DNA of 64,000 nt from Halorhabdus rudnickae (GTDB lineage Archaea; Halobacteriota; Halobacteria; Halobacteriales; Haloarculaceae). The notes under the pieces were generated by a model. The model made no database searches. It saw only the letters and a program-made list of their open reading frames with translations, and was not told where the DNA came from. Of this stretch, positions 23,148 to 45,300 are shown one piece after another. Location of the stretch: assembly GCF_900880625.1 (NCBI RefSeq), contig NZ_CAAHFB010000005.1:1-64000 (forward strand), written 5' to 3'. A program made the translations under genes and the position numbers. Position 1 is the stretch's first letter. Each line of letters begins with the position of its first letter.

Positions 23148-26054
23148 TCAGACCGGGAAAGCTAAGCAAACGTTTTCGACTTCAGGCGCGAGTGAGATGA
23201 CCTGAGCCTTCCGCTGCAGTTCTTGGTGCCTGTCTTCAATACGTTGTTCAAGTTTGTTCAGCCGCTCTTGTTGAGATCGGATCGCGATATCCATATCCGA
23301 TCCAGCCGCTGCTTTCCGCTCGTACTCATCGATAAACTCCTCAATCCGTTGGCGTTCGGATTCAGCATACTCTTCAAGGTCATCCAATTCTTGCTGGGTT
23401 TCCTCTCGACGGCGTTCGTATAATTCCTCCTTCAAGGATGCGACCTGCTGACTGATGTATCGGTCGGCCGCTTCTCGCAGCTGCTCCTGACTTTGAATCA
23501 CCGATCGAACACGGTCAGCGTCGGGTGACCCTTTGATACTGTTTCCCTGGACAACACGCTGACCGAGTTGCTGTCGTGGGTCTTGGTGGCGAGCATCGAC
23601 ATAGACGGGGATCATCTCTTCGCGGATGAGCTCGTTCGTTCCATCCTCGAACGTAACCCGGTAGTTGTAGACAATACCGGGCTCGTCCACGAACGGGAGG
23701 AGCTTCAGGCCGACATCGCCGTGGTCACTATCCAGGATTTGCTGCATGAGTCGCTGGACCAGATCGTCATCCGGCGAGACGTAGTCGATACCCTCGTGAT
23801 CCATCGCGAAGTCTCGGCTGAACGTGAACGGCCCGTACTCCTCGTCTGTTCCCTGTCGAAGGGAGCGAGGCAATTTTGCCCTGTAGAGATGGTCCCCGGA
23901 TTTCTCGACATCACCACCGAGTGCCTCGACGCCGCGCTCGACGAACTCGTGGATATCTGCCTCCGTTCCGTAGACTTCCTCGGACTCGTCCATCACTTCC
24001 TGGATCTTCTCTCGGCTCTCTTGATCGAACGTACTCGTATCGATGAGGCTTCGTTCGTACCACTCTTGGAGCGTGCGTTGACGCTCGTCAATGAGCTCCT
24101 CGAGTTCTTCCTTGGTCGCGCTCGCCGGTTCGTCGTTCTGGATAGACTCCATGATGAGCGAGTCGACGTTGATGTCGTCGAGCATCCCCAGCACGTCAGC
24201 CGTGTTGCCGAGTTTATCGCGAATGTTCTCGACCTTGTTCTGGAGCATCTCGAAGATCTCGCCTTCGCGGGTGTCCTCGAAGGTAAAGTTCCAGACTTTG
24301 ACCTCCTTGTCCTGCCCGTAGCGGTGAAGCCGGCCGATTCGCTGCTCGAGGCGATTCGGATTCCACGGCAGCTCGTAGTTCACCATGATGTGGCAACTGT
24401 GCTGGAGGTCAATCCCCTCGCTCGCTGCGTCGGTTGCGAACAGCAGTCGGGACTGGCCGTGGTTGAATTCCTCCTCGATGCGAGCACGTTCCTCCTTGTC
24501 GACGTCACCGTGGATGACGAGAATCTCGTCGGCCCAGGGTTCGTTCTTCACGAGGTCAAGGAGGTAGTCCAATGTGTCCCGGTACTCGGTGAACAGGAGG
24601 AGTTTCTCGTCGGGTTGCTCTTCTAGCAGCTGCTGGATGTAGCGTCGGACCTTCTGGGCCTTTGAATCGACGGAGATGCCCTCGGCGAGCGAAACGAGGT
24701 CTCGGAGGGTTTCGATCTCTTCTTCGAGTTGCGCATCGCTCTCGGTGACGGTCAGCGCGGAGAGTTCTTCTTCGGCTCGTTGTTTGTCCGTTTCGTCGAG
24801 ATCTTCACCGTCGAGATATGCGGAGGCTTCTTCCGAGAGACTAGTGGAGGTTGACTGCTCATCGACGAGGTCCGCCAAGCGACGACTCAGCGTCGCTCGG
24901 ATGGCGCCGATGCTGCTGACGAGGCGTTTTTGCATTAGTGCCATCGCAAATCCGACCGCTGGCTCGTTCAGCTTCTCGGAGCGATTGTAGACGTTCTGGA
25001 CGTATTCAGTAACGGCCTGATAGAACTGCCGCTCGTCGTGAGTCATCTCCACGGGCACAGTGTTGACCTCACGGTCTGGGAAAATGCGCTCGCCGTGATC
25101 GTCGTACAACGTTTGCTTCCCGCGACGAATCATCACGCGGTCGACGGCATCCGTCGAGAGGTCTTGATCCTCGGCCACGAGGAACGGATCGATATACTCG
25201 ACGAGTGAACGGAACGCTTCGCCTTTACCGTCATGGGGGGTTGCGCTGAGGAGTAACAGGGAGTCAGAGTTGCCGGCGATTCGTTCGACCATCTTCGACG
25301 TCTTACTGGGGGACTCGCCTCGTTTGGCGGCCTTGTGCGCTTCGTCGACCACTACGACGTCCCAGAACGCTTCCTCGAGGGGGGGCTGGAACTCGTCCTG
25401 TCGGAGGAAAGCCTGGCTCGTGACCAACTGCTGGTGTTCCTGGTCCCAGATGTTGGCTTCCTCGCCGAGTCGGCGGCGTTCCCCGTCGACCCACTGCCGG
25501 TCGGCAGGCACGAGGTCGAGATCAAAGAAGCGGTCCATGTCTCGGATCCACTTCTTCTGGAGGTGGGCCGGAACGACGAACAGAACACGGTCCGCGCGGT
25601 TGCGAGCGGCGAGTTCCTTGAGGATGAGGCCGGCCTCGATGGTCTTGCCGAGGCCGACGTCGTCGGCGATGAGTGCACGCTGGCGAAGTTTTTGCATGAC
25701 CCAGTTGACCGCGTCGAGCTGGTAGGGTTCGAGGCGGACCAGCGAGTTCGAGATACTCAGCAACTGGCCCTGTTCGTGAGCGATCTGGAGACGGAGCGCC
25801 TGTGATCGCAAGTCGAACCACTCTGCCGAGACGGCGTCGTGGTCTGGATGCAACTGGTCAGCTGACGCCGCGCTCAACTCCCCCATTTGATCGCGTTTCG
25901 ATTCGACTTCTATGTCGTCGATACAGACGGTCTTGACGCCCTCGTCTTCGACGTATGCCCGGAGATAGTCCAGATCTCCGACGGAGTAGGTCTTGATGAC
26001 CTCGGCGGTTACCCCGTTGAGCAGAATCCGGTCACCGGGATCGAAGTCATCCAT
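23148..26054 (-). CDS. brxHII: BREX SNF2-type helicase (BrxHII-like)
   Basis: A 968-aa SF2 ATPase, last gene of the BREX locus. Motif I is DDVGLGKT, motif II VVVVDEAHK, motif III LLSATPHDGK; the C-terminal helicase lobe has LLFATDAASEGIDLQ and ERRIGR-like arginines (EQRIGRLHRYGQ). A charged coiled coil follows (about 880-960). ATG 26054 is preferred over GTG 26063 because an aggag ribosome site sits 8 nt before the ATG, inside the end of pglZ. In BREX, such helicases are needed for phage restriction or modification. Confidence 0.85.
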   Translation of the reverse strand: MDDFDPGDRILLNGVTAEVIKTYSVGDLDYLRAYVEDEGVKTVCIDDIEVESKRDQMGELSAASADQLHPDHDAVSAEWFDLRSQALRLQIAHEQGQLLSISNSLVRLEPYQLDAVNWVMQKLRQRALIADDVGLGKTIEAGLILKELAARNRADRVLFVVPAHLQKKWIRDMDRFFDLDLVPADRQWVDGERRRLGEEANIWDQEHQQLVTSQAFLRQDEFQPPLEEAFWDVVVVDEAHKAAKRGESPSKTSKMVERIAGNSDSLLLLSATPHDGKGEAFRSLVEYIDPFLVAEDQDLSTDAVDRVMIRRGKQTLYDDHGERIFPDREVNTVPVEMTHDERQFYQAVTEYVQNVYNRSEKLNEPAVGFAMALMQKRLVSSIGAIRATLSRRLADLVDEQSTSTSLSEEASAYLDGEDLDETDKQRAEEELSALTVTESDAQLEEEIETLRDLVSLAEGISVDSKAQKVRRYIQQLLEEQPDEKLLLFTEYRDTLDYLLDLVKNEPWADEILVIHGDVDKEERARIEEEFNHGQSRLLFATDAASEGIDLQHSCHIMVNYELPWNPNRLEQRIGRLHRYGQDKEVKVWNFTFEDTREGEIFEMLQNKVENIRDKLGNTADVLGMLDDINVDSLIMESIQNDEPASATKEELEELIDERQRTLQEWYERSLIDTSTFDQESREKIQEVMDESEEVYGTEADIHEFVERGVEALGGDVEKSGDHLYRAKLPRSLRQGTDEEYGPFTFSRDFAMDHEGIDYVSPDDDLVQRLMQQILDSDHGDVGLKLLPFVDEPGIVYNYRVTFEDGTNELIREEMIPVYVDARHQDPRQQLGQRVVQGNSIKGSPDADRVRSVIQSQEQLREAADRYISQQVASLKEELYERRREETQQELDDLEEYAESERQRIEEFIDEYERKAAAGSDMDIAIRSQQERLNKLEQRIEDRHQELQRKAQVISLAPEVENVCLAFPV

Positions 26055-26059
26055 AGGAG

Positions 26060-28219
26060 TCACTCCTGCGTGATCGTTACGAAGTTGAGCACGAATTCTT
26101 GTGGGAGGGCCCCACCGTGGAGGAACCGGGCATCGGGTAGTCCCTGATTGCGGAACCGCTGAATCGGATCCGCGAGTGCGCTTATTTTCGTGTCGTCATC
26201 GAGATAGCCGAGGTGAGCTTTTTCATCGAGGAGGACACCAGGTGCATCTTCGTCGAGGGTGCTGCCGGCAACCCACCGACGCGTCACTTCCTCAGCCTCG
26301 TCCGGCGGATAGATGTCATCGATATCGACGCTCTGCGGGAGAGAAACGAAGCCGTGATCGGCGAGGATGTATGCCCGATCGAAGCTCTCGTTTCCGAGTT
26401 TCTCACAGATGATCCCGGCAATTGCATCGATCCGATCGCTGAACACGCCCTCGAAATCGGTCAATTCCTCCTCACCAGCCTTGTCGAGATCGTTCCAATA
26501 GAACGCGACACGTGGATTGCTCCACCCCAAGGCATCGTCCTCGCTCTGCATGATGTAACTCCATCCATCGTCCTTCAGCATCTTCTCGCGCTGGTAGTTC
26601 GTGATCTCCCGACCGTTTCGTTCGGGACTCAGCTCCCCATCCTCGAGTTCGATGTTGAAACTGAACTTACTGCCGGGTGTGAGTGCTGCTTTACCGAACT
26701 CGGTGTCCGAGGGGAGCGTACCGACCCAGGTGGTCTCGTCGACCTCGAGGCTGGATAGTTGATTACGGACGGATTCAGCCAGTTCGTGCGCGAGATCGAA
26801 GCGGAGCGCATCGACGACGAACAAGGCCACGCTCTGGCCACTCTGGAGGTGATCTTGTTCCTGGTCGAAAAACTGATGCACGTGGTTTTCACCGACGAAC
26901 GGTGACCCCGCCTCGATCTGGTCGGCGACGAGATCCCCAAGGTCGCTGAGGTAATCGAGGTATCGCGACTCAGTCAGCGACGTGCGCAGGTCGTTCAGGG
27001 TAGCAGTCGCAGGATGCTCTTCAGGGAGGTCATGCTCCGGCTCACCCGAGATGATGAGGTTGAAGACGGCATTATCGATCTGCCAGGTGCCGTCGTCGAT
27101 GTCGCCGTAGAGGTCGACAACGTCGGTCGTATCGCCGCGTTCTTCCCACGTCTCGAGTTCCTGTGCGAGTTTGGCGACCTCGACTGCCTGTTCCCAGACG
27201 TGCGTCCACGGAACGTCACCGTAGGTCTGTTCAAGCCGTTGCTGACGGCGGGAGGCACGAGTTGCACACGTCTCGTAGTCGCCGGCACCGAACGAGCCAG
27301 TCCAGTCGTCCCACAGTTCGTGTTCCAGTGAAGCATCGACCGGACAGTCGGCGATTTCCCACGGATCGTCATACGTGCGCAGGATGTCGTGCCAAAAGCG
27401 AGCGTTCGGATCGAGATACGTCAGGGCCAGCTCTGCTGGACGTTCAGTCTTGCTCAGTACAGCCTGGAGTTTCGGTCTGGAAATTCCGAGGCTGGAACTC
27501 TGTTTGGGCTGGTATGCTGAATCGAGGAGTGACTTCTCAAGCCCTTCGTCGACGAGCCACTCGGCAACGGCCCACCGCCGTGTGCGCTCGACGAGCGTCT
27601 GCTCGTCGGTGACGCCCTCGACGGCTGCGACGCCTTCGTCCACGAGGAGGTCCCGGATCTCGGCCAGTTTGTCGGTTTCCTCGGAGAGGTTCTCGACACC
27701 GTGTTCCAGGACGAACGCCACGGGATCGTCGTGACCATCCAACACGATCTGGGTCTGGAGGCTCTGGAGGTCCGGCAACCCGCCGTCGCCGTTGAGGGCT
27801 TCGAAAAGGATGTCAGCGACTTGCTCGCGTTCGACGCCTTCAGCGTCTCCGTAGGCCGTCCGAACCGTGCCCGCCTGCAAGCGATCGTTCCCGAAACAGC
27901 GGGCCGCGAGTTTGCCGATGTGCGCCTCAACGACACCGCCGGTGTTCTCGACGTCGCGGAACCAATCGACGTCGTCGGTCCGGGCTTGCGGGACGTACCA
28001 GACGGTCGTCTCGCGTGGAGCGTCGGCACGGAGTTCGAGCGGCGTGTGTTCTGCCGCGTGGAAGTCACAGCCGAGGTCACGGCTGATGGGTTCAACGATT
28101 TCTCGGAGGTCACCGCCGTCGTCCCACCAGATGATGACCGGATCGTCGTCGGGAGCCTCCTCGATAGCGTTCTCGATGGTGTCGCGGGCCGCCTGGTGAA
28201 GAGTTTTCGTTGCTGGCAT
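26060..28219 (-). CDS. pglZ: BREX alkaline-phosphatase-fold protein PglZ
   Basis: A 719-aa protein. The C-terminal half has the PglZ phosphatase-like signature: VALFVVDALRFDLAHEL, then TWVGTLPSDTEFGKAALTPG, then YILADHGFVSLP. The N-terminal ~350 residues are helical. PglZ is a defining BREX protein that works with the PglX methyltransferase to methylate host DNA and block phage replication. Its stop lies 5 nt before the helicase ATG. It is separated from pglX by an inserted toxin-antitoxin pair. Confidence 0.88.
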   Translation of the reverse strand: MPATKTLHQAARDTIENAIEEAPDDDPVIIWWDDGGDLREIVEPISRDLGCDFHAAEHTPLELRADAPRETTVWYVPQARTDDVDWFRDVENTGGVVEAHIGKLAARCFGNDRLQAGTVRTAYGDAEGVEREQVADILFEALNGDGGLPDLQSLQTQIVLDGHDDPVAFVLEHGVENLSEETDKLAEIRDLLVDEGVAAVEGVTDEQTLVERTRRWAVAEWLVDEGLEKSLLDSAYQPKQSSSLGISRPKLQAVLSKTERPAELALTYLDPNARFWHDILRTYDDPWEIADCPVDASLEHELWDDWTGSFGAGDYETCATRASRRQQRLEQTYGDVPWTHVWEQAVEVAKLAQELETWEERGDTTDVVDLYGDIDDGTWQIDNAVFNLIISGEPEHDLPEEHPATATLNDLRTSLTESRYLDYLSDLGDLVADQIEAGSPFVGENHVHQFFDQEQDHLQSGQSVALFVVDALRFDLAHELAESVRNQLSSLEVDETTWVGTLPSDTEFGKAALTPGSKFSFNIELEDGELSPERNGREITNYQREKMLKDDGWSYIMQSEDDALGWSNPRVAFYWNDLDKAGEEELTDFEGVFSDRIDAIAGIICEKLGNESFDRAYILADHGFVSLPQSVDIDDIYPPDEAEEVTRRWVAGSTLDEDAPGVLLDEKAHLGYLDDDTKISALADPIQRFRNQGLPDARFLHGGALPQEFVLNFVTITQE

Positions 28220-29113: not shown

Positions 29114-29117
29114 CCGA

Positions 29118-29761: not shown

Positions 29762-32700
29762 CTACAGGACCTGATCATCGACAGTTTTCGGAACGATCTC
29801 GGCGTCGGCCAGCGGCGTGATATTGATCTCGACGCCGTGTTTGTGGTTGGGCTGGTAGCCCGCGGTCGTGATCTCCGACAGCGCTCGGTCACTCCATTCG
29901 GATGAGATATCGCTCGCCATCGAATCACAGACGCCCTTGATTTCATCTGCAAGATCCTGGTAGTCCTCGATCCCGCTCGCCAATTCGGATTTGAACGTCT
30001 GACGACGGGATGCACCCCCATCTCCGAGATTCGTCTGGTCCACCTCCTCGAAGTTGTCGAAGTAGTAGGTCATGAACAGGATGCCGTTGCTGGCGTAGTG
30101 ACTCGAGCCGACCAGATCCTCGTAGTACTCGAAGAGGTCGTACAGGTGGGCCTCGACTGGCTCGGAGCCATCATTCGCGTAGGCCTCGAAGGCGGTTTCG
30201 AGATCCTCAAGGGCGTCGATCCACTCCTCGCGGTTCTCCTCGACCGTCTCGTAGAACGAGGGGCTGAACAGATCCTCCATGTCCACGTCCTCGAGAGCAG
30301 CGAGTTGATCCAGTGTCTCGAGTCGCTCGGTCGTCTGTTCCCTGAAGTCGGCCACCAACTCGGCGGCCTCCGCGGCGCGGTCCTGATTCGCCGCGGGCCA
30401 CTCGCGGGGGTCGGGTTGGGCGAGGTCGGCCAGTCGATCTTCGAAGACGGCGATCTGCTCCAGCCCGCTTTCACAGCGGGCGTACTCTGCGGCGGCTTCG
30501 GACTGTTCGGAGGGCGACAGGGAGTCGTCGCTCCGGCGGCGGTTGGCCGCACTCCGGCGTTCCCGGAGCAGGGCCTTCCGCGGTTCCAGATACCGGTTCT
30601 GGAGGCGGTCGAAGACGTTCGCATCGAGTTGGTGGTAGTCCACCAGGCAAGCGAAGCCCTCCCCCTCAGGATCGGAGACGAGTCGCTCGGTGGTGAACCG
30701 CCAGAGGATCGGCGTCCGGTCGAACTTTGAGACGTGGTACTCGAAGAGATCGTCTTCGAGCCACTGTCGAAGATTCGGATACGCCTCTTCGTCTGCGGTC
30801 TGATTTCCAAGGACTTGATCGACTTCCGCGAGGCGGGCGTCGGCGTGCTCGCCCCAGATGCGTTCGAACTCGCTCTCGATGTGGGTGAGGAGGTTGGCTT
30901 GGTCTTCGACATTGGAGATTGGGACAACGCCGTCGTCGGACTTGTGGACGGTTTTAAGTGTGAGATGGAGGAGAAGATCTTTCACCATCTCCGGGAAGTC
31001 GTCCGGGGTACCGCTAACCGAATCCGGATCTGAAACTTCCCTATCTTCTGGCTTCTCGACGGTCCTTAGGAAGATCTCTTCTCTGACTTTCTCAAGGCTC
31101 GATGAACTTAGACCGAGTGCGTTACCGACAATATTCGTAATCTCCTCTGCGAGGGTTTGGATTCGATTCTGTCGATGGCGACGAATTTTCTCTGCTTCTT
31201 GAGCAACTTCTGTGAGAGTCTGGTCCGCATCGCCCGTGTTGAATAACTCCGAGGCTTCAAACGAAATTTCCTCGGTGTGTGGGTGTGTGTAGAAAAATCC
31301 GGAAATGGCACTCTCGGGGAGGAGTTCCGGGCCGACGTAGTAGGGACTTCCCATGTTGTGCACGTTCTGTTTGACGAAAAGGTCGTATTGTTCCCTTGTA
31401 TTGTCGCGGAGTTTGTCGTTACCTTCCAGATCGGGAAACCAGGGGAGCATACCGATGTAGCCAGACTCCCACTTCCTTTCTGGCGTTAAACAGAGCATCA
31501 ACCCGTGGAAAACATCGGAGTTCACTGCTCCGAGGAGGAGCCACGGGTCGATATCACCTGTGAATAGCATATTGCTCGCATGGCCAAACAGTCCTCCAGG
31601 GGGGTAATATCCGAATCGACGACCGGTTCGCTTTATGTACGCCCAGGTTAATCCCTCCTGAGTCTGGTATTCCATATTACGGAGGACAGAGTTCGGAGCT
31701 CGATCGACTTCGGCGCCACCATTAGTCCAGTTGATGACCTCGTCAACCTCAGGCAACGTCCAAACATCACCCCCCGCATTCGTGAATGGTTTGAAAGCGT
31801 CGTTTTTAGCCTCCCACTGTTTTCGAAGGAACCGATCATTGTCGGCTGTCGCAAGTCCCTGCTTCACGTCGCCGATTCCTTCTCCAGGGATGCCCGGAAC
31901 GTCCGGATCGATTTTCAGGTCTGTGTCGTGGAGGCTTCGGACCTCAGGCGGCAACGAGTAGCAGATTGGGGTTCCTGGGACCTGATCGAACTCGTTTAGC
32001 TCAACTTCGAAGTACCTGTTAACAGAATCCCCTATCTCTCCGAAGGCAGTATTCAGGTAAGTTGCCTCTTTCTCTTCTTTATTACGGTCATGAAGTCGGA
32101 TGAATGTTCCAGTCGTACTTCTCCGTTTTCCGGTTCGGACGACTGTACCAACGGTTCCGACCGTCGCATTATCCAAAACCCCGTATCCGAACTCAGAAAG
32201 GAAGTCGAATGAACCGCGCTCACCCACAAAGTCGGAGCGGAACGATTCGAACGTTTGATTGAACAGGAACGACCAAGGCACGAGCATACCGATCCGGCCG
32301 TCCGTAGAGACAAGACGATCACACGCCTCGAAGAAGTTGATGTAGTACTCTTGAGTGTAGTCGTAGTGGTCTTCTGAGTACTCACGCACCGGCTTTGGCA
32401 TCCTTCCCCGAGACCCGTACGGCGGATTCATCAACGCAACGTCATATTCCTGTGTCAACACCACCAGCAGGTGCAGGAAACTCCGGAGGTTCTGCTCGCC
32501 AAACGAGTCCGACGTCTGCTCTTCGACGGCCCGTTGCAGCGCTTTCAAAAAGGAGTGCAGCGACTGGTGAGCGCGATCGTGGTAGTCGGTGAGTTCGGAC
32601 TGGGTCTTACTCGCGTCGAAGGCCTCCTCGAGCGTTCCCTGCACGTCGAGCAGACTCCCCAGGGCCTCGGTCGTCTGGAACGTCTCGATGATGTCCTCTA

Positions 32701-33958
32701 AGGCGTCCCAGAGGTCGGTCCCCTCGCCGGTGATCTCGTTGAGCACTGCCTCGGCTTCCTCGATCTCTGCGACGCGGTTATCCGCGGTGACGATCCCGAC
32801 GTTCGGCATCTGGAACGCATCAGAACCCTCGGCTTCGGCACGCCCGCGGGCCTTCAGATAGAGATTGAACGCCGCGAGCTGTGCTGCCCGGAGGTCGATA
32901 TCGACGCCGTAGAGGTTGTGCTCGAGGATCTTCGCCGGGACTTCCTCACGGGGAACGTCGGGCCGTTCGGTCCACCAGATGCGCTCGAAGATGTCAAAGG
33001 CATACAGCAGGAAGTGCCCGCTGCCACAGGCCGGGTCGATGACCCGGAGCTCGGACGGATCGTCGAACTCCGGGGCCGCCTGGTCCTCGTCGTCTGGGAT
33101 GAGGTACGTGGCGATGCTGGGGACGTCCGGGGCGGCGTCGGGCGTCGTGGCTCGTTCCTTGCGCTCGTCGATAGAGAGCGCCTCGGGTTCCGGAACGGTG
33201 TCTTCCTTGCCCGTGGCTTCGAGATAGAGCTTCCCCAGGGAGTTGTCGGTGAGCATCCGGACGACCCAGTGGGGCGTATAGAACTGGTTCGCCGGGCCGA
33301 CGTCTCCCGGCTCGAGCGTGTTCTTGGCATCGAGGGCCTCGACGACAGGCCGGTTGTAGTATTCGTAGACCCACCCGAGCACGTCGTCCGCCCGCCAGAC
33401 TTCGTCGGGGATCTCATCGAGCATTCCAGCGAGGTCTTCGTAGGTATCGACGTCCGGATCGACGAGACTGTACGGCGTGTCGGTATCGAACAGGATCTCG
33501 ATGTCCTTTCCCAGTTCCTCGCACTTGTTCTGGTAAGCCGTCAGAATCGCCTCGTCCTCCAGCAGAAATTCCTCGTGGACGAGCGTCTCGGCGGCAGGTG
33601 TCAGGCCGTTCTCCTTGAAGACGGTGACCTCCTCGTCGATGAAGTCCCGGACTTCCATCGTCCGGAGGGCGGCGAGTCGATTGACGATCGTGTAGCCGAC
33701 GCCTGTGACGTACTCCGCGAACGCCTCGTCCCAGGTGTGGCCATCGACCGCTTCGAGTTGAATGGCCTCGACAAGTTCCTGGATGTCCTCGTCCAGTGCT
33801 TCAGGCTCGTCCGGTTTCTCGTCGAGACCTTTCTGCGTGAGCTGGAAATCGACGTTGTCCTCGACGCGCTCGCGCATCTCGGTGACGACGTCTTCGAGGT
33901 GTTCGCGCTCTTCCTTGTCCAATTGGGCCTTTCGCTGGGAGATAGAATCGCCTGACAT
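29762..33958 (-). CDS. pglX: BREX adenine-specific DNA methyltransferase PglX
   Basis: A 1,398-aa protein, a little longer than typical PglX (~1,200). The SAM-binding motif is VIDPACGSGHFLLYAFDIFERI-type (DPACGSGHF) and the catalytic motif ALMNPPYGSRG (NPPY), both in the first half with a large helical insertion between. The C-terminal half should recognise the BREX target site. It methylates host DNA so that BREX spares it. Separated from the brxA-brxC part of the locus by the TBP genes. Confidence 0.9.
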   Translation of the reverse strand: MSGDSISQRKAQLDKEEREHLEDVVTEMRERVEDNVDFQLTQKGLDEKPDEPEALDEDIQELVEAIQLEAVDGHTWDEAFAEYVTGVGYTIVNRLAALRTMEVRDFIDEEVTVFKENGLTPAAETLVHEEFLLEDEAILTAYQNKCEELGKDIEILFDTDTPYSLVDPDVDTYEDLAGMLDEIPDEVWRADDVLGWVYEYYNRPVVEALDAKNTLEPGDVGPANQFYTPHWVVRMLTDNSLGKLYLEATGKEDTVPEPEALSIDERKERATTPDAAPDVPSIATYLIPDDEDQAAPEFDDPSELRVIDPACGSGHFLLYAFDIFERIWWTERPDVPREEVPAKILEHNLYGVDIDLRAAQLAAFNLYLKARGRAEAEGSDAFQMPNVGIVTADNRVAEIEEAEAVLNEITGEGTDLWDALEDIIETFQTTEALGSLLDVQGTLEEAFDASKTQSELTDYHDRAHQSLHSFLKALQRAVEEQTSDSFGEQNLRSFLHLLVVLTQEYDVALMNPPYGSRGRMPKPVREYSEDHYDYTQEYYINFFEACDRLVSTDGRIGMLVPWSFLFNQTFESFRSDFVGERGSFDFLSEFGYGVLDNATVGTVGTVVRTGKRRSTTGTFIRLHDRNKEEKEATYLNTAFGEIGDSVNRYFEVELNEFDQVPGTPICYSLPPEVRSLHDTDLKIDPDVPGIPGEGIGDVKQGLATADNDRFLRKQWEAKNDAFKPFTNAGGDVWTLPEVDEVINWTNGGAEVDRAPNSVLRNMEYQTQEGLTWAYIKRTGRRFGYYPPGGLFGHASNMLFTGDIDPWLLLGAVNSDVFHGLMLCLTPERKWESGYIGMLPWFPDLEGNDKLRDNTREQYDLFVKQNVHNMGSPYYVGPELLPESAISGFFYTHPHTEEISFEASELFNTGDADQTLTEVAQEAEKIRRHRQNRIQTLAEEITNIVGNALGLSSSSLEKVREEIFLRTVEKPEDREVSDPDSVSGTPDDFPEMVKDLLLHLTLKTVHKSDDGVVPISNVEDQANLLTHIESEFERIWGEHADARLAEVDQVLGNQTADEEAYPNLRQWLEDDLFEYHVSKFDRTPILWRFTTERLVSDPEGEGFACLVDYHQLDANVFDRLQNRYLEPRKALLRERRSAANRRRSDDSLSPSEQSEAAAEYARCESGLEQIAVFEDRLADLAQPDPREWPAANQDRAAEAAELVADFREQTTERLETLDQLAALEDVDMEDLFSPSFYETVEENREEWIDALEDLETAFEAYANDGSEPVEAHLYDLFEYYEDLVGSSHYASNGILFMTYYFDNFEEVDQTNLGDGGASRRQTFKSELASGIEDYQDLADEIKGVCDSMASDISSEWSDRALSEITTAGYQPNHKHGVEINITPLADAEIVPKTVDDQVL

Positions 33959-34043
33959 AGGGTATCTGTGTAGTCTCTTCGAGTAACAGCAGGGTCTTCA
34001 ATGTTGGCTAATAAATGACGGTACACCTACTCGCTGGAGCTCG

Positions 34044-34628
34044 CTATATCTGAGATAGCTTCTCCTGGACTCCCAGAAACGCGGAACGAACCTCACGATA
34101 CGTAAGAACTGAGGTGATTACTACTTTCCCCGACGAGAATATCAGGACGACACCCTCTTCTGTACGGTATGTTGCGCCCGGGAATTGCTCTGGCTCGTAC
34201 TCTGTAGACTCCAGTCCCAGAGCAATGACTGCCGCATTTAGATCGACGGTTTGTCCAACATCTCCAGTGGCGACGACGTTCTCGATTCGAATATCTCTAT
34301 AATCGTCGTTAAGTCCTAAAGAATCTAACTCAGAAACGAATTCTTGAACACCTCTTTTAATCTCATGTTCGCTCTTTGCTCCAGCTATACTGACTCTTCC
34401 TCTGGGTGGAAGGAGAACTGTGAAACTACCGACGTTGGGTGATCTGTAGATAAGGCTTCGGTGGTGATCTGGTTCGTATTCACTATTTACTAGGTCCTCG
34501 GAAAGTCGTTCTAAATCATACTCTCCGTCAAGTTCGAAGGAGGCCGAGATATTGGATACTTCAAGAGAATATTCCTCTAACTCGGCTGGTGTTACCTCCT
34601 CATCCAACCGTGCGAGTTTAACGCCCAT
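34044..34628 (-). CDS. tbp: Divergent TATA-binding protein (TBP)
   Basis: A 194-aa protein with the two-repeat TBP saddle. The second repeat is near canonical (IRIENVVATGDVGQTVDLNAAVIALGL, EYEPEQFPGATYR, VVLIFSSGKVVIT), keeping both DNA-intercalating Phe positions. The first repeat is degenerate: EPDHHRSLIYR replaces the PEQFPG loop and FTVLLPPRGRVSIAG replaces the IFxSGK strand, so its Phe pair is missing. An extra ~35-residue N terminus is present. It may bind different promoter elements or act as a competitor. Confidence 0.82.
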   Translation of the reverse strand: MGVKLARLDEEVTPAELEEYSLEVSNISASFELDGEYDLERLSEDLVNSEYEPDHHRSLIYRSPNVGSFTVLLPPRGRVSIAGAKSEHEIKRGVQEFVSELDSLGLNDDYRDIRIENVVATGDVGQTVDLNAAVIALGLESTEYEPEQFPGATYRTEEGVVLIFSSGKVVITSVLTYREVRSAFLGVQEKLSQI

Positions 34629-34830
34629 TATCCTCGTAGTTCATACTAACCCGGGGATTCCACAAGGGTAAGAATTACTTTGAAGTTCACGAACCATGGC
34701 AAGTGCTCTTCATTAGTAGATGGTCGCAGGACTTTGAAAAGGTATTTTAACGACTCTGACCTCCTCTTCACCTAACTAAACGCAATCCGATCCACCAGAG
34801 TAATCTTTACTGGACCGGTGTATTCGAGCG
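34629..34830. promoter_or_regulatory. Divergent region between two TBP genes
   Basis: 202 nt between the minus-strand TBP and the plus-strand broken TBP. AT-rich stretches near 34665-34680 and 34738-34752 are candidate TATA boxes. No coding feature. Confidence 0.35.
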
Positions 34831-35380
34831 ATGGGTGAACTGGCGGTTGAAGTTGTGAACATTGCGGCAGTAGGCGATTTAGGGGTTGAAGTAGACATTG
34901 AGCAACTTGCCAGTAACTCAGAGTTGCCCGTTGCTCGTTACGATCCCGAGAACAACGCTGCGTTTTTTTTTTTGATTCGAAGAGGATGGCAAGCTCGTAA
35001 TTCTGTATACGTCTGGGAAATACATTCTCCGAGGTGGTGATGACTTCGACAAAATGCACCAGGTCAACGATCGGTACTTGTCCTATCTCACAGAGACGGG
35101 ACTGGACTTCAGCGACCCCTCGCTCGAGGTCAAGAACGTGGTCTCGGTTGGGAATCTACAGAAGGATATTGAACTCAATGCATTGATGATCGCATTAGGG
35201 TTAGAAGATACAGAATACGAACCTGAGCAATTCCCCGGTTTGATTTATCGACCTGACTCTACTCGTTGTGTCTTGTTGGTCTTCTCCAGCGGAAAAGTAG
35301 TCGTCACGGGCGGACGTACTGCTGAAGAAGACGAAGAAGCCTTTCTCCATCTCCAGGATCAGGTCGATAAACTCCTGTGA
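34831..35380 (+). pseudogene. Broken second TATA-binding protein gene at an 11-T run
   Basis: Begins MGELAVEVVNIAAVGDLGVEV, the start of a TBP, and loses frame at an 11-T run (34963-34973). In another frame the repeat continues (FEEDGKLVILYTSGK, then YILRGGDDFDK) and joins a full second repeat from about 35040: EVKNVVSVGNLQKDIELNALMIALGL, PEQFPGLIYR, VLLVFSSGKVVVTGG. Changing only the number of Ts does not restore an open frame (TGA or TAA follows), so at least one more change has occurred. The second repeat could still be made from ATG 35054. Confidence 0.8.
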
Positions 35381-35449: not shown

Positions 35450-35731
35450 ATGCCTGAGGACGAGTCATCGGGATTGTCTGCCGACAGACGCGAATGGGAA
35501 GCGATGTATCCCAATCAGGGGTACGTCCTCGTTCGTTTTGACTACAACAGTCCACCGGGAGACGCTCTCGAAAAGCTGGCTACCCACGAGTCTCTCGATG
35601 AGATCGATGGCATTCCTTCAGACACGAACTGGAGGGGTACGTCGTCTACGCTAGTGAGGGGAACACGTACTCCAACGAAGACCTTTGAGCTCTCGCTTAG
35701 GCGCGCTCACTCCTCCAGTTCAGTCGTGTGA
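35450..35731 (+). CDS. Small acidic unknown protein, possibly frameshifted
   Basis: A 93-aa frame from ATG 35450. The first ~65 residues are protein-like (REWEAMYPNQGYVLVRFDYNSPP). The end turns Ser/Thr/Arg-rich, whereas another frame over about 35620-35689 gives a better-looking tail (ELEGYVVYASEGNTYSNEDL) with its own stop. A frameshift near 35600-35620 is likely. Function unknown. Confidence 0.35.
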   Translation: MPEDESSGLSADRREWEAMYPNQGYVLVRFDYNSPPGDALEKLATHESLDEIDGIPSDTNWRGTSSTLVRGTRTPTKTFELSLRRAHSSSSVV

Positions 35732-37860: not shown

Positions 37861-40800
37861 TCATTTCTCAAGTAGTACGATATTCCCTTCCTCCAAATCG
37901 TCAAGACGACCCTTCACACCCTGCATCCGCTCCAACACAGCCTTCGATTCCGAGAGCAGTTCACTCACGTGCTCTTCACTCGGCCGACTTTCGGCATCAA
38001 CAGCTGACGTAACTTCATCGGTCACGTCGGCGTTCGGAAGCTCTTGGCGCAACTCTTCGGCGACCATCTGAAGTTCGGCCCACGCATCGTCGTCCGCACC
38101 TGGCGGCCTAGGGTCCTTTGCATGCTCGATGAGCTGGCGCACTCGTCGCTCTGAGGGCGGCCGTGAAGCGGCGAGTATAGTCTCGACGGACTCGGTCGTT
38201 GGTGACTCTGGGTGTTCCTCACGCAGCTCTTCGCCTGCTGCCCGTAGCTGCGACCAAAGAGCCGAACCGTCAGAGTCGTCGAAGAGGTCGCGAACCTGCT
38301 CGTACGTCTCGGCCTGTTGGACGACAGCGGAGTCGACGACATCACCTTCCGACAGATCCTCACCGGCCCACACAGCTTCGAAGACGTCCTCTAGGTCGCC
38401 AAGTACGATGTCGTCGAACTCATCAGTAGCACCATCGACGATTCCTCGAACGTCGTCCTCGTTCGATCGGAGCCACGCGCTCAAATCGTCACAGATGGCT
38501 TCCGGGTCAGAGTCAGCGACGGTCTCACCTGTGATTCGACGGAACTGTGCGGAGGTTTCGTCGACGCGATGTCCCTTCGCGTCCTCAAGCCGTGACTCGA
38601 CCGTCGAAACGCTGGGGACAGTCTCGCCTTCCGCTGTTGCTCGCATACTGGCAGTGATCGACGCGTTCGGATAGAGCGAGGTCATCGTGTCGAGCTCGTC
38701 GCTGAAGCGTTCCCAGAGTGTCGTCCCGTCTTCGCTGACGCCGAAGAGTTCACGAGCGTTCGCGAAGATCTTCGCCTCCTCGAGTACCGTTTCGAGATCA
38801 TCCTCACTTTCGAGGTCGGACGTGGAAAGCTCGTCCTCGTCGAGGGCTGGATCGACCGTTGCCTCGAAGGCGCTGAGCGGCACATCGAACTCACGGCTGG
38901 CGCCTTTCAGCGTCCGCTTGACAGTCGCACTGTTCTCGTTGACCCACTGGCCGAGCTCGCCCAACCATTCGTCTGGTCCGTCACCCGACGGCTGCTCACC
39001 GAGCACCGTCGAAACGAGGTCTTTTACCTTATTTGGCGGGAGAATATTTGCATTGAAGCGGATTTGGAGTGACGTCAGTCCCCCTTTGGTCCGCACTTGT
39101 CGACCGATGGCGGCGGGATCAGACACGTACTCGGTATCCTGTTTGAGTGCGACTGACTCATTCGAAGTCGCAAGTGTGATGAGTAGCGCCGCGATCGACT
39201 CCTGTGGCGTCCCGCGGTAGTCGCCGTTGGCAGTCTGAGTCTGCTGGAGGAGTGTCTCGACGTCGACGGATTTCTGTGCCTCGTACGTCTCGATGAACTC
39301 GCGACACCAGCCCGTATCTGCGACTTCCCCGCTGGCTGTGTCGACGCCGAGCATCGCTGCGTCCGCGCTTGAGAGCGGCCACTCACCGCTACCGCGGAAG
39401 AACGTTGCCATCGCCTTCGCGTCGTCGACTTCGACGAGCGGCCGCGAGAGCGTCTTTCGAGACGATCCGAAGACAGCGTTGACCTGGTCTTCGACGACGG
39501 TGTCAAGCACGCTCGAGCGTGCCCCACGGTGTTGGTTTACCGTGTACACCGACGCATCTTCGAGTATCTCCGTCACCGATGATTCGAGGCGGCGTTTGTC
39601 GGCACGGTGTTCGCGTTCGAGTTCCTCGTGGGATTCGGTCTCCTCGTCCAACACCTGTCCCATACCGATGACGTTCCGAATCCGCTCCAGCATCGTCTCC
39701 GGAACGTCGACGGTAATCAGGATGTGCTCCCCACCGTCGCGACCGTTGTTCACGTCCTGCCACGTCTCGATCTGCTCCGATACGGTATCGTGATCATCGG
39801 CCAGCACACGAACGCGAAGCGCGTCGTACTCGGGTGACGGCGCTCGGTCGACCGGTTCGAGGATGGAGTACTCGTACCGTAGTGGGACGAGGCGCTCGTC
39901 GCCAACATCGACCTCGTGGCGGCTGCCGTCACTCCTGAAGAACGCATCGTTCTCCCGTAGCCGCGTTTCCACCCACGCCGACAGCTGATGCGGCGAGATC
40001 TTTGCGGCCTTGTCCTGGGCACGACTGAGGATGCTCTCCTGTTCCTCGGAGACGAGCGTGTACACCTCGTCGCCCTGGTCGTTCGTCTCGGTGAGGGCCT
40101 TCTGCTTGTCGACGAGCGTCTCCAGTCCCGATTCGGTTCGCTCGACGACATCGTCAACAGACGCTGTGACGTCGTCGACCATCAACCGACCGAGGTTTGC
40201 TGGCGTCGAGGGGACAGCGGGCGTCTGGTTCAGAAGGTAGAGTCCTTTCGCGAGGCGGACTTCCCACGCATCCTCCTCACCGTCGAACGTCGGAACGAGC
40301 GTGTTGTCGATCATCTCCTGGACCCAGAGCGGGAGGTACGTGGTCTCTTCGACCAACAGGTCGAACAGGACGTCCCACGTGACGAGCGAGCCCTCCTCCT
40401 TCGACGCCCACCCGAACTTCGTGAACAGCGACCGAACGAGGACGAGCAGTGCTCGACCCTGAATGTAGTCGCGATCGGTCGAGCGACCCTGCGTGATGAG
40501 TTCCTGCATCACCGCCCGCAGGAGCGACAGATCGTACTCGCGGAACGGATAGGCCTCGACTGGGTCCGGATCCGCGCTCGTCACCGACGAGTACGTCTCG
40601 AGTGAGAGATCGGGCATCGACGCCACCAGCGACTCGACACGTTTGCGTCCCTCGGGGTCCGACTTCTGGAGCCATCGCTTCCGAACGATGATCTCGGTGT
40701 CCGCTCCTTCAAGCCGTACCTGTTGATACGTCCAGTGATCTTCGGGCGGCTCGCCGATGAGACTCTCCCGAGTATCCGGGAGGGAGTACTGTCCGGTGGT

Positions 40801-41694
40801 GACCACGACCGTGTTGGGCCCACGCTGCAGTGCCTCCATCGTCTCCTCGAACTCACGATAGCGATGGCGACTGTCGCCGACGAAGAGTGCCACCTCGTCT
40901 AAGCCGAGCAGCAGTTCGGTCCGTTTGCTGCCGTCGTTGAGAGCCTCCGTTGCAGTCTCGACCCGTGAGACGAGGTCCTCGGGATCGAATTCTTCTGGAT
41001 CGACATCCGCTTCTGCGGCCTCGATGGAGGCTTTCACGCCCGAACGACTGTTGAGCTCCGTTCCGGACGTTTCTTCCATCGCCGGCAACGCTTCGTAGAG
41101 CCAGCTGCGGAGGGACGCCCGTTCGGCGAGAACGTCGTCGAATGTCTTCCCGTCATGCTCGAACGTTTGAAGGGGCTCCCAGACCCCATCGTACTCCATA
41201 TCCAGCGTCCAGGCCCACTCGAGCAGCCAGTTCGGGTCGGTCGGATATCCGAGATCCCGACCAATCGCCTCGAAGATGAGGAACGGCAGCGGCGGCTCTT
41301 TCGACGCATCGCGGTCAAGCAGGTTGAGGAAAACTGGCTTGAGGCGGTCCACGTGAGAGTCTGTGATTGACTGCTGGAGTTCGTCGAACCCCGGCCACTG
41401 TTCGGCCAGTCGATCACCCAGGTAGGCGAACTCGGATTCGTCGTCAGCGAGGAGGCCGACCAGCTTCAGGAGGTGGGTCTTCCCGGAACCGAACGTCGCG
41501 TGGATGTAGAGGAACCGCGCGGCCTCACCGGGATGGGTCTGGATACCTTCGCCGAGCGTTTCGAGGACCTGCTCGGCACTGTCAGTTTCATAGAACTCTC
41601 TCACGTCAGTCTCGGCTCGTTCGCGAGCGTTGACTTTCTGTACTTCTTCGAGCTGTCGCGTCGGATCGCTGTGGAAGAGATCGTCGATACTCAT
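37861..41694 (-). CDS. brxC: BREX ATPase BrxC/PglY (second copy)
   Basis: A 1,277-aa AAA+-type ATPase. Walker A is IHATFGSGKTHLLKLV (around residue 70-80), with LLGLDEVALFVGDSRH as the likely Walker B region. The long C-terminal part is helical and acidic. BrxC/PglY proteins are core BREX ATPases. The ATG overlaps the BrxB stop by 4 nt. It differs from the other BrxC of the locus in length and sequence, so the two are not a recent duplication and may form a mixed complex. Confidence 0.85.
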   Translation of the reverse strand: MSIDDLFHSDPTRQLEEVQKVNARERAETDVREFYETDSAEQVLETLGEGIQTHPGEAARFLYIHATFGSGKTHLLKLVGLLADDESEFAYLGDRLAEQWPGFDELQQSITDSHVDRLKPVFLNLLDRDASKEPPLPFLIFEAIGRDLGYPTDPNWLLEWAWTLDMEYDGVWEPLQTFEHDGKTFDDVLAERASLRSWLYEALPAMEETSGTELNSRSGVKASIEAAEADVDPEEFDPEDLVSRVETATEALNDGSKRTELLLGLDEVALFVGDSRHRYREFEETMEALQRGPNTVVVTTGQYSLPDTRESLIGEPPEDHWTYQQVRLEGADTEIIVRKRWLQKSDPEGRKRVESLVASMPDLSLETYSSVTSADPDPVEAYPFREYDLSLLRAVMQELITQGRSTDRDYIQGRALLVLVRSLFTKFGWASKEEGSLVTWDVLFDLLVEETTYLPLWVQEMIDNTLVPTFDGEEDAWEVRLAKGLYLLNQTPAVPSTPANLGRLMVDDVTASVDDVVERTESGLETLVDKQKALTETNDQGDEVYTLVSEEQESILSRAQDKAAKISPHQLSAWVETRLRENDAFFRSDGSRHEVDVGDERLVPLRYEYSILEPVDRAPSPEYDALRVRVLADDHDTVSEQIETWQDVNNGRDGGEHILITVDVPETMLERIRNVIGMGQVLDEETESHEELEREHRADKRRLESSVTEILEDASVYTVNQHRGARSSVLDTVVEDQVNAVFGSSRKTLSRPLVEVDDAKAMATFFRGSGEWPLSSADAAMLGVDTASGEVADTGWCREFIETYEAQKSVDVETLLQQTQTANGDYRGTPQESIAALLITLATSNESVALKQDTEYVSDPAAIGRQVRTKGGLTSLQIRFNANILPPNKVKDLVSTVLGEQPSGDGPDEWLGELGQWVNENSATVKRTLKGASREFDVPLSAFEATVDPALDEDELSTSDLESEDDLETVLEEAKIFANARELFGVSEDGTTLWERFSDELDTMTSLYPNASITASMRATAEGETVPSVSTVESRLEDAKGHRVDETSAQFRRITGETVADSDPEAICDDLSAWLRSNEDDVRGIVDGATDEFDDIVLGDLEDVFEAVWAGEDLSEGDVVDSAVVQQAETYEQVRDLFDDSDGSALWSQLRAAGEELREEHPESPTTESVETILAASRPPSERRVRQLIEHAKDPRPPGADDDAWAELQMVAEELRQELPNADVTDEVTSAVDAESRPSEEHVSELLSESKAVLERMQGVKGRLDDLEEGNIVLLEK

Positions 41695-42311
41695 TGGAGA
41701 TGCACCCCCCGGATCTGGCCGTCAATCTGGTGAGCGGGGTAGTAATGGCGTGATTCACCGCCGAAGAAGCTCAGCTTCCCGCCGACGATGTCCCCCGGGA
41801 ACGGGATTCCGATGGTGGACTTTACGTTCCGACGGTCAAGCTCGTCCAGCAGTTCCGATGCACGGGTGAACGGATACAGACTGCCGAGATTGAGCAAGAG
41901 AACCACATGGCTCTGGGTCTCCAGCTGGGCTTCGCTGAGCTCGTGGTCGACAATTTGCTGAACGAGTTCTACAGCAAGCCGGTCCTGCATCGTCTCTTCG
42001 ATACGCTCATCTGGCGACGTATCTCCCTCGAGTTCAGCCAGGGGTTCACCCAGGTCGACGAGGAGTTTGTACACATCGGTCCGTGGAAGGAGTTCGTCAA
42101 GCCAGATCGGCTGGACGGTTACGTTGTCTGGGATTTCTGGGGCTTTCGTTCGTCCATCGGACCAGGTCGCGAGCCTATCTGCGACCCGATGCTCGACTGC
42201 TGGGTCGACAGCAGCGATAACGAACGGATTACGAATCCCGTGTTGCCCCTGAGCGAACGTCCGTAGTTTCTCCTTGAATTCACGATACGGCGACGAACTC
42301 GTCTGGCTCAT
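41691..42311 (-). CDS. brxB: BREX protein BrxB (DUF1788)
   Basis: A 206-aa protein. The C-terminal half carries the DUF1788 pattern: VVLLLNLGSLYPFTRASELLDEL, then STIGIPFPGDIVGGKLSFFGG, then YYPAHQI. BrxB is a conserved small BREX component. It overlaps both flanking brxC genes by 4 nt (ATGA), placing it exactly between the two ATPases, which suggests balanced synthesis of the three subunits. Confidence 0.85.
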   Translation of the reverse strand: MSQTSSSPYREFKEKLRTFAQGQHGIRNPFVIAAVDPAVEHRVADRLATWSDGRTKAPEIPDNVTVQPIWLDELLPRTDVYKLLVDLGEPLAELEGDTSPDERIEETMQDRLAVELVQQIVDHELSEAQLETQSHVVLLLNLGSLYPFTRASELLDELDRRNVKSTIGIPFPGDIVGGKLSFFGGESRHYYPAHQIDGQIRGVHLQ

Positions 42312-45300
42312 CGAATGATCACCCCTTCGTCAGTCTCCTCGATCTCAAGATCTTGCTGTTCCACGAGACGCTCCAGCCGGCGATTCAGTTTCTGCCGATC
42401 GTCAGGAACGATGCCGATTTGATCGACATCGTCCGGCGTTCGATCCCCAACGATAGACGACAGTTCATCGAGCCGGCCATCCAGCTCACTCGGATTGTAC
42501 TCGATAGTTTCAGCGAGCGGCTCTAACTGCGCCACGTCGTCAGTAATCTCGACGATGGCGTCTGAATCAGCATCGGTAGACAACACCGTGATCGCGCTCT
42601 CGATGGTTTCGTACCACTGCTGGAGGTGGCGCATCGGAGTGATGTATTCGCCTTCGAAGGCGACGTGGACGCCTGCGGGGAGATCAGTAGCTGAAAGAAT
42701 CCATGGATGCTCCTCAATACGACGGACTAGTTCACGCAGGCCTCGTTCGTCAACGAACGCGTTCCACGACCTCTCAAGTTCGGGTGCGAGGTCGGGAACG
42801 AATTCTCCGGAGAGTGTACTCCACCCATCGGTCGTCCACCACTCACCATCGAACGATGAGACCGCAGATGAGCGGGACTCGATAGAAGCTTGAGCGTCCT
42901 CGTCAACCCAGTCGAACTGACGGTTTCGAACCGTCAGTACCGCGTCGAGCTGTTGTAGTGTCGAAAGACGCCGGTTCCAGACGTCGGTTACCTCTTCGAC
43001 CCACTCTTGGGCCTCGTTGGTCTCGTCGATGACATCCTCGATACCGCCATCTTGTGACTTGACGGCTGAAATCCGGTTTTCGGTAGCATTGCTTCGTTCC
43101 GCCAGCTCATCAGCAAACGCATTGAGTAAGCCAGCGACTTCGTTGGTTCGCACGTCAGTGTCGACCACTAGCGTGACGTCTTCACGAAGTCCGGTCAGCT
43201 TCGAGCGAATCTGCTGGTTAGTTTCTTGGAGGTGAATGAGACCATCCGCAACTGTTTCAGTCGTCTCCTTGAATCCGCCTTCCTCCAGTAGCTTGCCCAA
43301 GTTAGTCCGTGGAAGGAGTTTCAGTCTCGTCGTCGAAAGGCTGTCGAGGTCCAAGACGGATTCGTCTTCCAGCGTGTTTCCGTCCTCGTCGATTGGCACT
43401 AGTCTCCCCTCGCGGCAGAATCCCCAAATGATCGCACAGAGTGCAGGCCGGGCCTCGTCGTAGAATGGCTTCTCCTCGACGATCCCGTCCAGAACGGTGT
43501 TCATATTGAGTCCGTCGTCGCGGTCTTTCAGCTGCCGACCAGTGAGAGACATAACGTTTCGCTGAATGGTTTGTTGGCCCTGCGCACCATTCTGGTTCGA
43601 CGAGGGGACTTGAATCGTCCGTGCCCACGGCGGGAGCGGTGCATCGCTGTCGAGTTCGCGTAATTCTCGCAGCCGACTTTCGTCGACCTGGAGCATCATC
43701 GGGTGGAAGTCGTCGGGATAGGCGACGTCGACAGTGGCTTGGATCGCCTTCGAGAGACCACCGATGTCCGTCCGATCTTTCACGGTATAGGAGCCACTCA
43801 TCATTGCGCTCGTCAGCTTACTTCGAACGGTGTTGGCACGCTGTTCGAGGTCACGCTCGACGGCTGGTGGGGCGTCACGCGTAGCAATTGCGTCGCGAAG
43901 CGCCCACCACTCAATCATTCGTTTGCGAAGATCTTGGAGGCCATCCGTGTCGATCTCCCAATAGAGCGTGTCCTCGTCAGTTTGCTCTGGTTCTTTGTCT
44001 GGGCGGACGCCCTGCACATCGATGTCGATGTCCAGCCCACCTTCAGCTTCAATACTGCTCTCGAAGGTTGTCCCGTCGAGTCCGAAGTGATACGAAACGG
44101 GGTACTCGTCACTGGACTCTCCGTAGGGGACTGACTCTGGTAGCGATAGGTCCTGAGTGATGCGATTCCAGAGATGTTCGTCCAAAGTGTCGATGACGTC
44201 GTCCCAGTCGGGGTCGGCTTCATTCTCCCCGGTCTCGTCGTAGATGAGGCGTTCTTCCTGTGTCGCGAACCGATAGCGAGCCCCACTTTCGTCTTGTGTC
44301 GGTCGAATGAACTTCTGCAGTCGATCCAGTGAATCCTCGACCCGATTGGTCGTGCTAATCCACGATTGGCCGTTCAGGTCGTCCATGACGGCGACCGCAA
44401 TATTCCCCTCGTTCAGGGGAACGATTTCGTGGACGTGCTGGAGTAGGAGGACCGCCTTCGCTACATCGAGGTCGAACTCTTGAAGCTCACTTTCGTCGTC
44501 ACCTACCTCGTCAGCGATGCCGGTCGTCTCTTCAGCGCCCTCGACAACCCGCATATCCTGCGGTAAAATCTCACGTAGTTCAGGCTCAATCAACTCGAAG
44601 AAATCGACCAGCGAGACGATATGGTCTTCCTTGCCCTCGTCGATCCAGTCGTCCAGCAACCCGTGCATAAGCGCGAGAATGGCACGGGCAGTCCCCGAGA
44701 AGATGGACTTCGCCGGGTCGTTTGCCTCTCGGCGGAGGTTGAACAGGATTTCCAGGAACAGCGGGGCGTGATACGGCAAGAAGGGATAGAACTCTACGAG
44801 ATCCTCAGCATCAACCACATCGAGTGCCGGCTTCGTGTTCTGTTTGATTTCGTTGTACACGAGCGACTCAGCCGGTTTCACGTCGGCGTCAGCCAAGATG
44901 CGCCGAACCTCATCTTCGCCCGCGTCAGACTTCTGGAAGAGCCGACGTTTGGCGATCTCCCCGACATGCTTGCTTGGGAGCTGATACCGATGAGGGAACC
45001 GATCTTTGACGATACTGAAATCGGCCCCGTGGGCCGCGAATTTGGGTTGGACGTCTTCGATTTTTGCCTGCGCCGTCGCAACGAGCTGAATGTCGCCGTC
45101 TCCGATGTCGTCGACGTTTTCCGCGAGCGTCTGCAGCTCTGTGAGCCGCTCGAAGTCGGTTCCGATGAAGAGGCTCACCTCGTCGAGCAGGAGAACGAGC
45201 CTGACTGGCTCCTCAAGCTCCGATTCACGTTCCTGACGCAATGATTCCAACCGACTGACAACCTCTTCTGGGTCAATATCCGAGGGTTGGAGGTCGGTGT

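Follow-up and report, generated by a model that had tools for sequence, protein, structure and literature searches.

In haloarchaea, TATA-binding proteins (TBPs) without the intercalating Phe pair of repeat 1 (half-TBPs) were linked to genes of BREX and restriction-modification (R-M) systems, and one of them was encoded inside a BREX type 5 (BREX-5) locus of the window analysed, which was the first 64 kb (64,000 nucleotides) of contig C5 (295 kb) in a haloarchaeal genome of 3.36 Mb. This focal TBP (34044..34628, minus strand; ATG start, 194 aa) is read, with about an even chance of the reading being right, as a TBP re-specified as the controller of a defence operon and still recruiting TFB.

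Both PF00352 repeats were matched in the focal TBP (121.6 bits in two stretches, cut-off 22.9), and a genome scan with PF00352 scored repeat 2 at 73.6 bits and repeat 1 at 51.2 bits. In alignment with the chromosomal TBP of its own genome and with archaeal TBPs of the PDB, repeat 1 had DHHRS at canonical EQFPG and VLLPPRGR at canonical ALIFRSGK, with His56 and Pro74 at the two intercalating Phe positions; both Phe were lost, as the initial annotation had claimed. Repeat 2 retained its intercalating F149 and F164, also as claimed, and the Phe pair that a TATA-binding protein has in both repeats was missing from repeat 1 only. Phe at shifted positions, the check that had been proposed for this claim, were not found: the nearest Phe, F69, lay five residues upstream of Pro74 and aligned to neither lost position. 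A shifted alignment in the initial annotation was ruled out by the sequence alignments and by structure superposition. In the AlphaFold model (mean pLDDT 93.3, with most strands of repeat 1 over 90) both halves of the saddle were complete, and the model superposed on human TBP (1cdw) with Z 21.2 and an rmsd of 1.4 over 174 residues. The repeat-2 stirrup, EYEPEQFPG, was invariant in 10 of the 10 half-TBPs of alignment A1; two Glu of this stirrup contact TFIIB/TFB in eukaryotic structures.

The focal gene was flanked by pglX and by a second, divergent TBP gene. All BREX genes of the locus were on the minus strand: those of the PglX methyltransferase (29762..33958, 1398 aa; NCBIfam BREX-5 PglX 2327 bits, cut-off 900), PglZ (26060..28219, 719 aa; NCBIfam BREX-5 PglZ 1081 bits, cut-off 250) and BrxA (46054..46890, 278 aa; PF08849, 27 bits, cut-off 23), and, by PADLOC match, those of the SNF2-type helicase BrxHII (23148..26063, 971 aa), the first (42308..46057, 1249 aa) and second (37861..41694, 1277 aa) copies of BrxC/PglY, and BrxB (41691..42311, 206 aa). 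BREX-5 PglX and PglZ, BrxB, two BrxC, BrxHII and BrxA, which define BREX type 5, were all present, and the earlier placement of the TBP inside a BREX locus was upheld by the two BREX-5 models and the other Brx genes.

Several other features of the locus were recorded. Positions 34000-34999 had the lowest G+C of any kilobase between 20 and 50 kb (46.7%), which fits a recent insertion of the TBP pair. A 331-aa ORF (35707-36702, minus strand), with no Pfam or PADLOC match, was conserved in five further BREX-5 loci (L155, L158, L159, L166 and L167). Between pglX and pglZ (28532-29678, minus strand), a SocA/Panacea-domain gene overlapped a 206-aa ORF, possibly as a toxin-antitoxin pair, and L183 had homologs of both. 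A UvrD-type helicase with a nuclease domain and a second PD-(D/E)XK protein were encoded just upstream of the BREX operon (47033-52631, minus strand). TFB genes and a TFB fragment lay on the same contig stretch (16819-18261 and 59944-60801, plus strand), and a similar TFB was within 12 kb of the BREX genes of L154, from the same genus.

The second half-TBP gene, of a family termed TBP-prime and overlooked in the initial annotation, was broken (34831..35380, plus strand), and the intergenic region 34629..34830 was common to both divergent TBP genes. A T11 run (34963-34973) shifted the frame of TBP-prime and a TGA (34973-34975) ended the downstream frame. Phase variation through the T11 run was considered and rejected, the codon before TTC being TGA at any run length in the downstream frame; because this TGA persists whatever the length of the run, two lesions are needed in the gene. 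A sequencing error in the run is a possible origin of the T11 lesion. Intact TBP-prime relatives adjoined BREX-5 genes (L159/L268, L168, L204, L208, L244, L290 and L305), and two other copies were damaged, by a frameshift in L177 and by truncation in L206. Half-TBP genes were often paired, both in the window (34044-35380) and elsewhere (L349, L247, L347, L278, L352 and L040). The pairs, some of them divergent, commonly consisted of one TBP of the YYFF or NYFF type and a more changed one, and the two could be partners.

The feature was not peculiar to the focal locus. In a census of every TBP with an E value of 1e-15 or lower in 35 genomes, sampled evenly across the class, the 78 TBP ORFs comprised 52 with all four intercalating Phe (FFFF), 20 full-length non-FFFF TBPs and 6 fragments, which were shorter than 140 aa and were left out of the main count. 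A BREX or R-M gene was found within 3 kb of 18 of the 20 full-length non-FFFF TBPs vs none of the 52 FFFF TBPs (Fisher p 4.6e-15, a value that overstates independence because Phe loss and linkage map to two old lineages). The panel of neighbour genes was fixed before the census regions were fetched, and covers only the system types from which it was built, so that a TBP with no panel gene nearby may still adjoin a defence system of another type; without the three census loci that had supplied panel sequences (the window, L258 and L276), 15 of 17 non-FFFF TBPs were linked. Such a neighbour was also present for four of the six fragments, and was missing from two full-length non-FFFF TBPs of the census (L348 and L358). 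No defence gene was detected by PADLOC or Pfam at the partnerless L249 and L348, or in the gene after a VWA-domain protein of L282 that is described below. In the discovery set, which was chosen by similarity score and BREX linkage, is therefore unusable for rates, and leaves out gapped or short rows, a panel gene was within 3 kb of 44 of 50 non-FFFF and 0 of 26 FFFF TBPs.

A plasmid check gave R-M or BREX linkage in 5 of 6 non-FFFF vs 0 of 14 FFFF TBPs, in 20 further regions that were hand-picked against near-copies among the 60 matches listed, with product names visible and not at random. The neighbours of the linked non-FFFF TBPs were BREX-5 (L290 and L305), type I R-M (L302 and L308) and an Eco57I-type methylase in an unannotated record (L304); the sixth (L300) had no R-M or BREX neighbour. 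No annotated R-M or BREX gene was within 6 kb of the 14 plasmid FFFF TBPs, one of which (L298) was borderline, with a DEAD helicase, a small SAM methyltransferase and NucS nearby. On the pooled list of full-length non-FFFF TBPs, which counts two genes twice (L351 = L302, L352 = L308), 51 of 59 had a partner within 3 kb, and 54 of 59 kept both Phe in repeat 2. The partner ORF was at 150 bp or less in 38 of the 51, on the same strand in 27 and on the opposite strand in 11.

Outside BREX, the neighbours of TBPs without repeat-1 Phe were type IIG-like methyltransferases of the Eco57I type, R-M genes of type I, or a methyltransferase with a SNF2 helicase, the last on pNRC200 of Halobacterium NRC-1 and pHLAC01 of Halorubrum lacusprofundi. 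The partner systems (BREX-5, type I, type IIG-like and methylase-helicase) were unrelated to one another. Half-TBPs were encoded beside R-M or BREX genes, as controller proteins are, and may control them. The idea of a TFB partner gene travelling with half-TBPs was rejected, because a TFB query located a TFB near few of them. DUF262 genes flanked the TBP in pHLAC01 (L267), L053, L256 and L262, and a TBP-family gene together with DUF262 is described for a haloarchaeal provirus in the accessible text of PMC7230728.

Of the 391 genomes sampled from the class, 64 matched in a BrxB search, and 65 BREX regions, none longer than 20 kb and together 1.18 Mb (some cut by contig ends), were taken, the two weakest matches (G298 and G396) being left out. 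Half-TBP genes were found in 10 of the 65 regions, the focal one included (11 genes; 0.27 expected from the census density). Their placement varied between the brxC-pglX gap, the position after pglX, the pglZ-helicase gap and the position after pglZ. Further half-TBPs of BREX loci were upstream of brxC1 (L244), beside pglZ and a helicase on another G348 contig (L246), and in a BREX-5 context on two plasmids (L290 and L305). A TBP as a core gene of BREX-5 was rejected on these counts: BREX-5 does not need one, because 55 of the 65 regions, some cut by contig ends, had none. The earlier suggestion that the focal TBP has to do with control of BREX is plausible, because half-TBPs recur beside both BREX and R-M genes.

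In a tree of 125 TBPs, built by a quick method with the four Phe columns masked, the FFFF TBPs formed one group (69 rows, plus L300), and the non-FFFF TBPs formed two, one of 46 rows that included the NRC-1 protein and TBP-prime and one of 9 rows that included the focal TBP. The clade of the focal TBP was placed apart from the NRC-1 protein, tentatively, with an SH-aLRT of 90 on a quick tree with long branches. Linkage of half-TBPs is an old lineage trait and not the outcome of many independent gains, and the count of independent pairs on the tree was only one to two. Within these lineages, the type of the linked system changed at least nine times among the 46 labelled rows, which speaks against a single operon having simply been inherited together with its TBP.

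When the 391 genomes were searched with the focal clade, 8 members were found, scoring 242-266 bits (the next match scored 190) and about 40% identical to one another. Four of the eight were in BREX-5 loci (G000, G006, G046 and G348), and two were beside R-M genes (a type IIG-like gene in G120, type I R-M genes in G381). For the remaining two (G171 and G262), the surrounding 3 kb held no panel gene; the TBP of G171 adjoined a 1439-aa VWA protein, and G262, taken as the L265 plasmid from its matching place, had a DNA methyltransferase about 3 kb away. Closest to the focal TBP (54% identity in the aligned part) was the one preceding the 1439-aa VWA-domain protein (L282:8970-14553, plus strand), perhaps part of an undescribed system. 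In another BREX-5 locus, the focal-clade TBP was extended at its N terminus by about 100 aa, a stretch that gave a weak PqqD/winged-helix-like match (L186:13085-13981, plus strand). The second Phe site of the clade held Pro in six members and Thr in two.

The initial annotation had called repeat 1 degenerate and the protein half-functional, a description at odds with the complete predicted fold and with the sister families. In a rough comparison of two sister families, with synonymous sites near saturation in many pairs and the focal clade left out as too divergent and because its L282 member had been given a wrong start, the median pN/pS was 0.23 in repeat 1 and 0.28 in repeat 2 of the TBP-prime family, and 0.29 and 0.28 in the methylase-helicase family (canonical TBPs: 0.18 and 0.20). 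Repeat 1 appears to be as constrained as repeat 2 in these two well-sampled families, and, judged by the model of its fold, "degenerate" would be the wrong word for repeat 1 of the focal TBP. Decay, in which an accessory TBP would have lost the function of repeat 1 under relaxed selection and hitch-hiked in mobile defence islands, could account for the broken TBP-prime of the window and its frameshifted and shortened copies (L177 and L206), and loss of function is one of the possibilities in Becker et al. (2014; accessible text of PMC4230888). It is nonetheless very unlikely in view of the equal constraint on the two repeats in both families, the uninterrupted reading frame of the focal TBP and its intact predicted fold, the recurrence of Pro at one Phe site across a clade of about 40% identity, and the lack of R-M or BREX linkage in plasmid four-Phe TBPs (0/14).

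In the reading favoured here, the focal TBP would be a general transcription factor put to the use that restriction systems make of their controller proteins. With its Phe pair and stirrup retained, the repeat-2 half would dock TFB, and the repeat-1 half, with its fold kept, would read DNA without the Phe kink. From the sequence, the predicted fold, the linkage and the sister-family constraint we infer TFB recruitment, an altered choice of promoters and control of BREX: the protein would bring TFB and RNA polymerase exclusively or by preference to non-standard promoters within its operon, those of pglX and of the TBP gene itself, or, in the alternative sense, would hold those promoters down. 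Because efficient bending by an archaeal TBP required both sets of Phe (accessible text of PMC4041446), a TBP that has only one of them should be a poor bender by itself and need either TFB or a special promoter. The controller reading is weighed against by the absence of a TBP from 55 of the 65 BREX regions, by the two focal-clade members of eight (G171 and G262) that had no panel gene in the surrounding 3 kb, and by the NRC-1 tbpC gene, whose deletion, according to the accessible text of PMC2121645, had no apparent phenotype.

An effector or accessory subunit also fits, because 27 of the 38 close neighbours were on the same strand and the half-TBP was often the last gene of the operon. As a dominant-negative effector, a half-TBP would bind TFB without forming a productive bent complex, and would sequester TFB or occupy promoters, stopping viral or host transcription when the defence fires. 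The invariant TFB-side stirrup next to lost repeat-1 kink residues agrees with such an effector, yet the gene was divergent from its partner in L159, L168, L177 and L290, an arrangement usual for regulators, and in two families repeat 1 appears to be maintained as a specific surface. We know of no sign of toxicity or killing by half-TBPs, which also counts against an effector. The need for both Phe sets in archaeal bending (PMC4041446, accessible text) is in its favour and the silent tbpC knock-out (PMC2121645, accessible text) is not, and this explanation is held to be unlikely.

The promoter of pglX gave a further point in favour of the controller reading. The pglX promoter region (33959..34043, minus strand) had CAACATTGAAG some 48 bp upstream of the pglX start, and the conserved pglX promoter core of this BREX-5 subtype was GGCAACATTAAAG, which lay about 50 bp upstream of the start codon. 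Where a TBP gene adjoined pglX, four of the five loci had the ATTGAAG core (the window, L168, L177 and L290; not L159); it was present, among 21 other loci of the same promoter type, counted by eye, in L167 alone. The contrast had a Fisher value of 0.002, entered as 4/5 vs 1/20, post hoc and with related loci. This difference in the core may serve as a lead only.

A role outside transcription, in which the altered saddle would bind single-stranded, mismatched or RNA-DNA hybrid structures and serve the defence machinery directly, has parallels in other TBP folds. The accessible text of PMC12209930 reports that Giardia TBP, with three of the four Phe missing, prefers single-stranded DNA, and that of PMC3710099 discusses TBP-like domains, both those that are fused to HEPN RNases and those of RNase HIII, as binders of DNA-RNA hybrids. 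Linkage of half-TBPs to methylase and helicase systems would suit such a role, but a near-canonical repeat 2 and the TFB-side stirrup are unneeded by a mere binder of DNA structures, and the explanation is considered quite unlikely.

Why haloarchaea have many TBPs is a long-standing question, and tbpC-like TBPs have been suspected to be dead. It is tentatively proposed, at somewhat below an even chance, that a class of controllers for R-M and BREX systems arose in haloarchaea from a general transcription factor by way of duplication, with a re-specified first half, travelling with unrelated operons and giving each its own promoter code through the host TFB. To our knowledge, this could be the first general transcription factor captured as a defence regulator. 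If true, such a class would give tbpC-like TBPs a function and account in part for the surplus of TBPs in halophilic archaea; the strong and simple R-M/BREX linkage gives these TBPs a testable role. Half-TBPs would also provide a natural series with one kinking half for studies of promoter bending, and loss of the repeat-1 Phe may be used as a sequence marker to spot archaeal defence operons.

Phe loss was not new as a sequence feature, halves without the N-terminal Phe being on record as tbpC-like TBPs: in the accessible text of Becker et al. (2014; PMC4230888), 18 of 21 tbpC-like homologs from 18 species were without the N-terminal Phe pair, and both non-function and a specialised role were held possible. 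A literature search, with subscription papers mostly outside it, gave no paper joining a TBP with BREX or R-M in haloarchaea, and a word search of the main text of an archaeal R-M survey (PMC10609329) found neither TATA nor TBP. The N-terminal Phe loss was thus already known, and the linkage to BREX and R-M seems, on a search of this scope, to be without a source in print.

Among known systems, the focal TBP resembled tbpC-like TBPs in having two repeats with the N-terminal Phe pair lost and the C-terminal pair kept, and in being accessory; these genes are often on plasmids. On the tbpC-like model NF001593 (cut-off 181), the focal TBP fell below with 147.7 bits and the L264 TBP of the NRC-1 methylase-helicase operon, which is tbpC, passed with 254.9. 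A difference is that a link to defence systems is undescribed for tbpC-like TBPs in the accessible text of PMC4230888. Giardia TBP is similar in having a TBP fold without most of the intercalating Phe, but it is the sole TBP of a eukaryote and prefers single-stranded DNA, and a defence link is unmentioned in the accessible text of PMC12209930. With BREX type 5 of Halobacteria, the focal locus shared BrxA, BrxB, two BrxC, PglX, PglZ and BrxHII, the TBP being a non-core gene. The C proteins of bacterial type II R-M systems have an HTH fold, unlike that of the focal TBP, and BrxR is described as having a WYL fold. C proteins and BrxR are close in setting to the focal TBP, a small putative DNA-binding protein beside or within R-M or BREX operons, and the job proposed for it would be the same as theirs.
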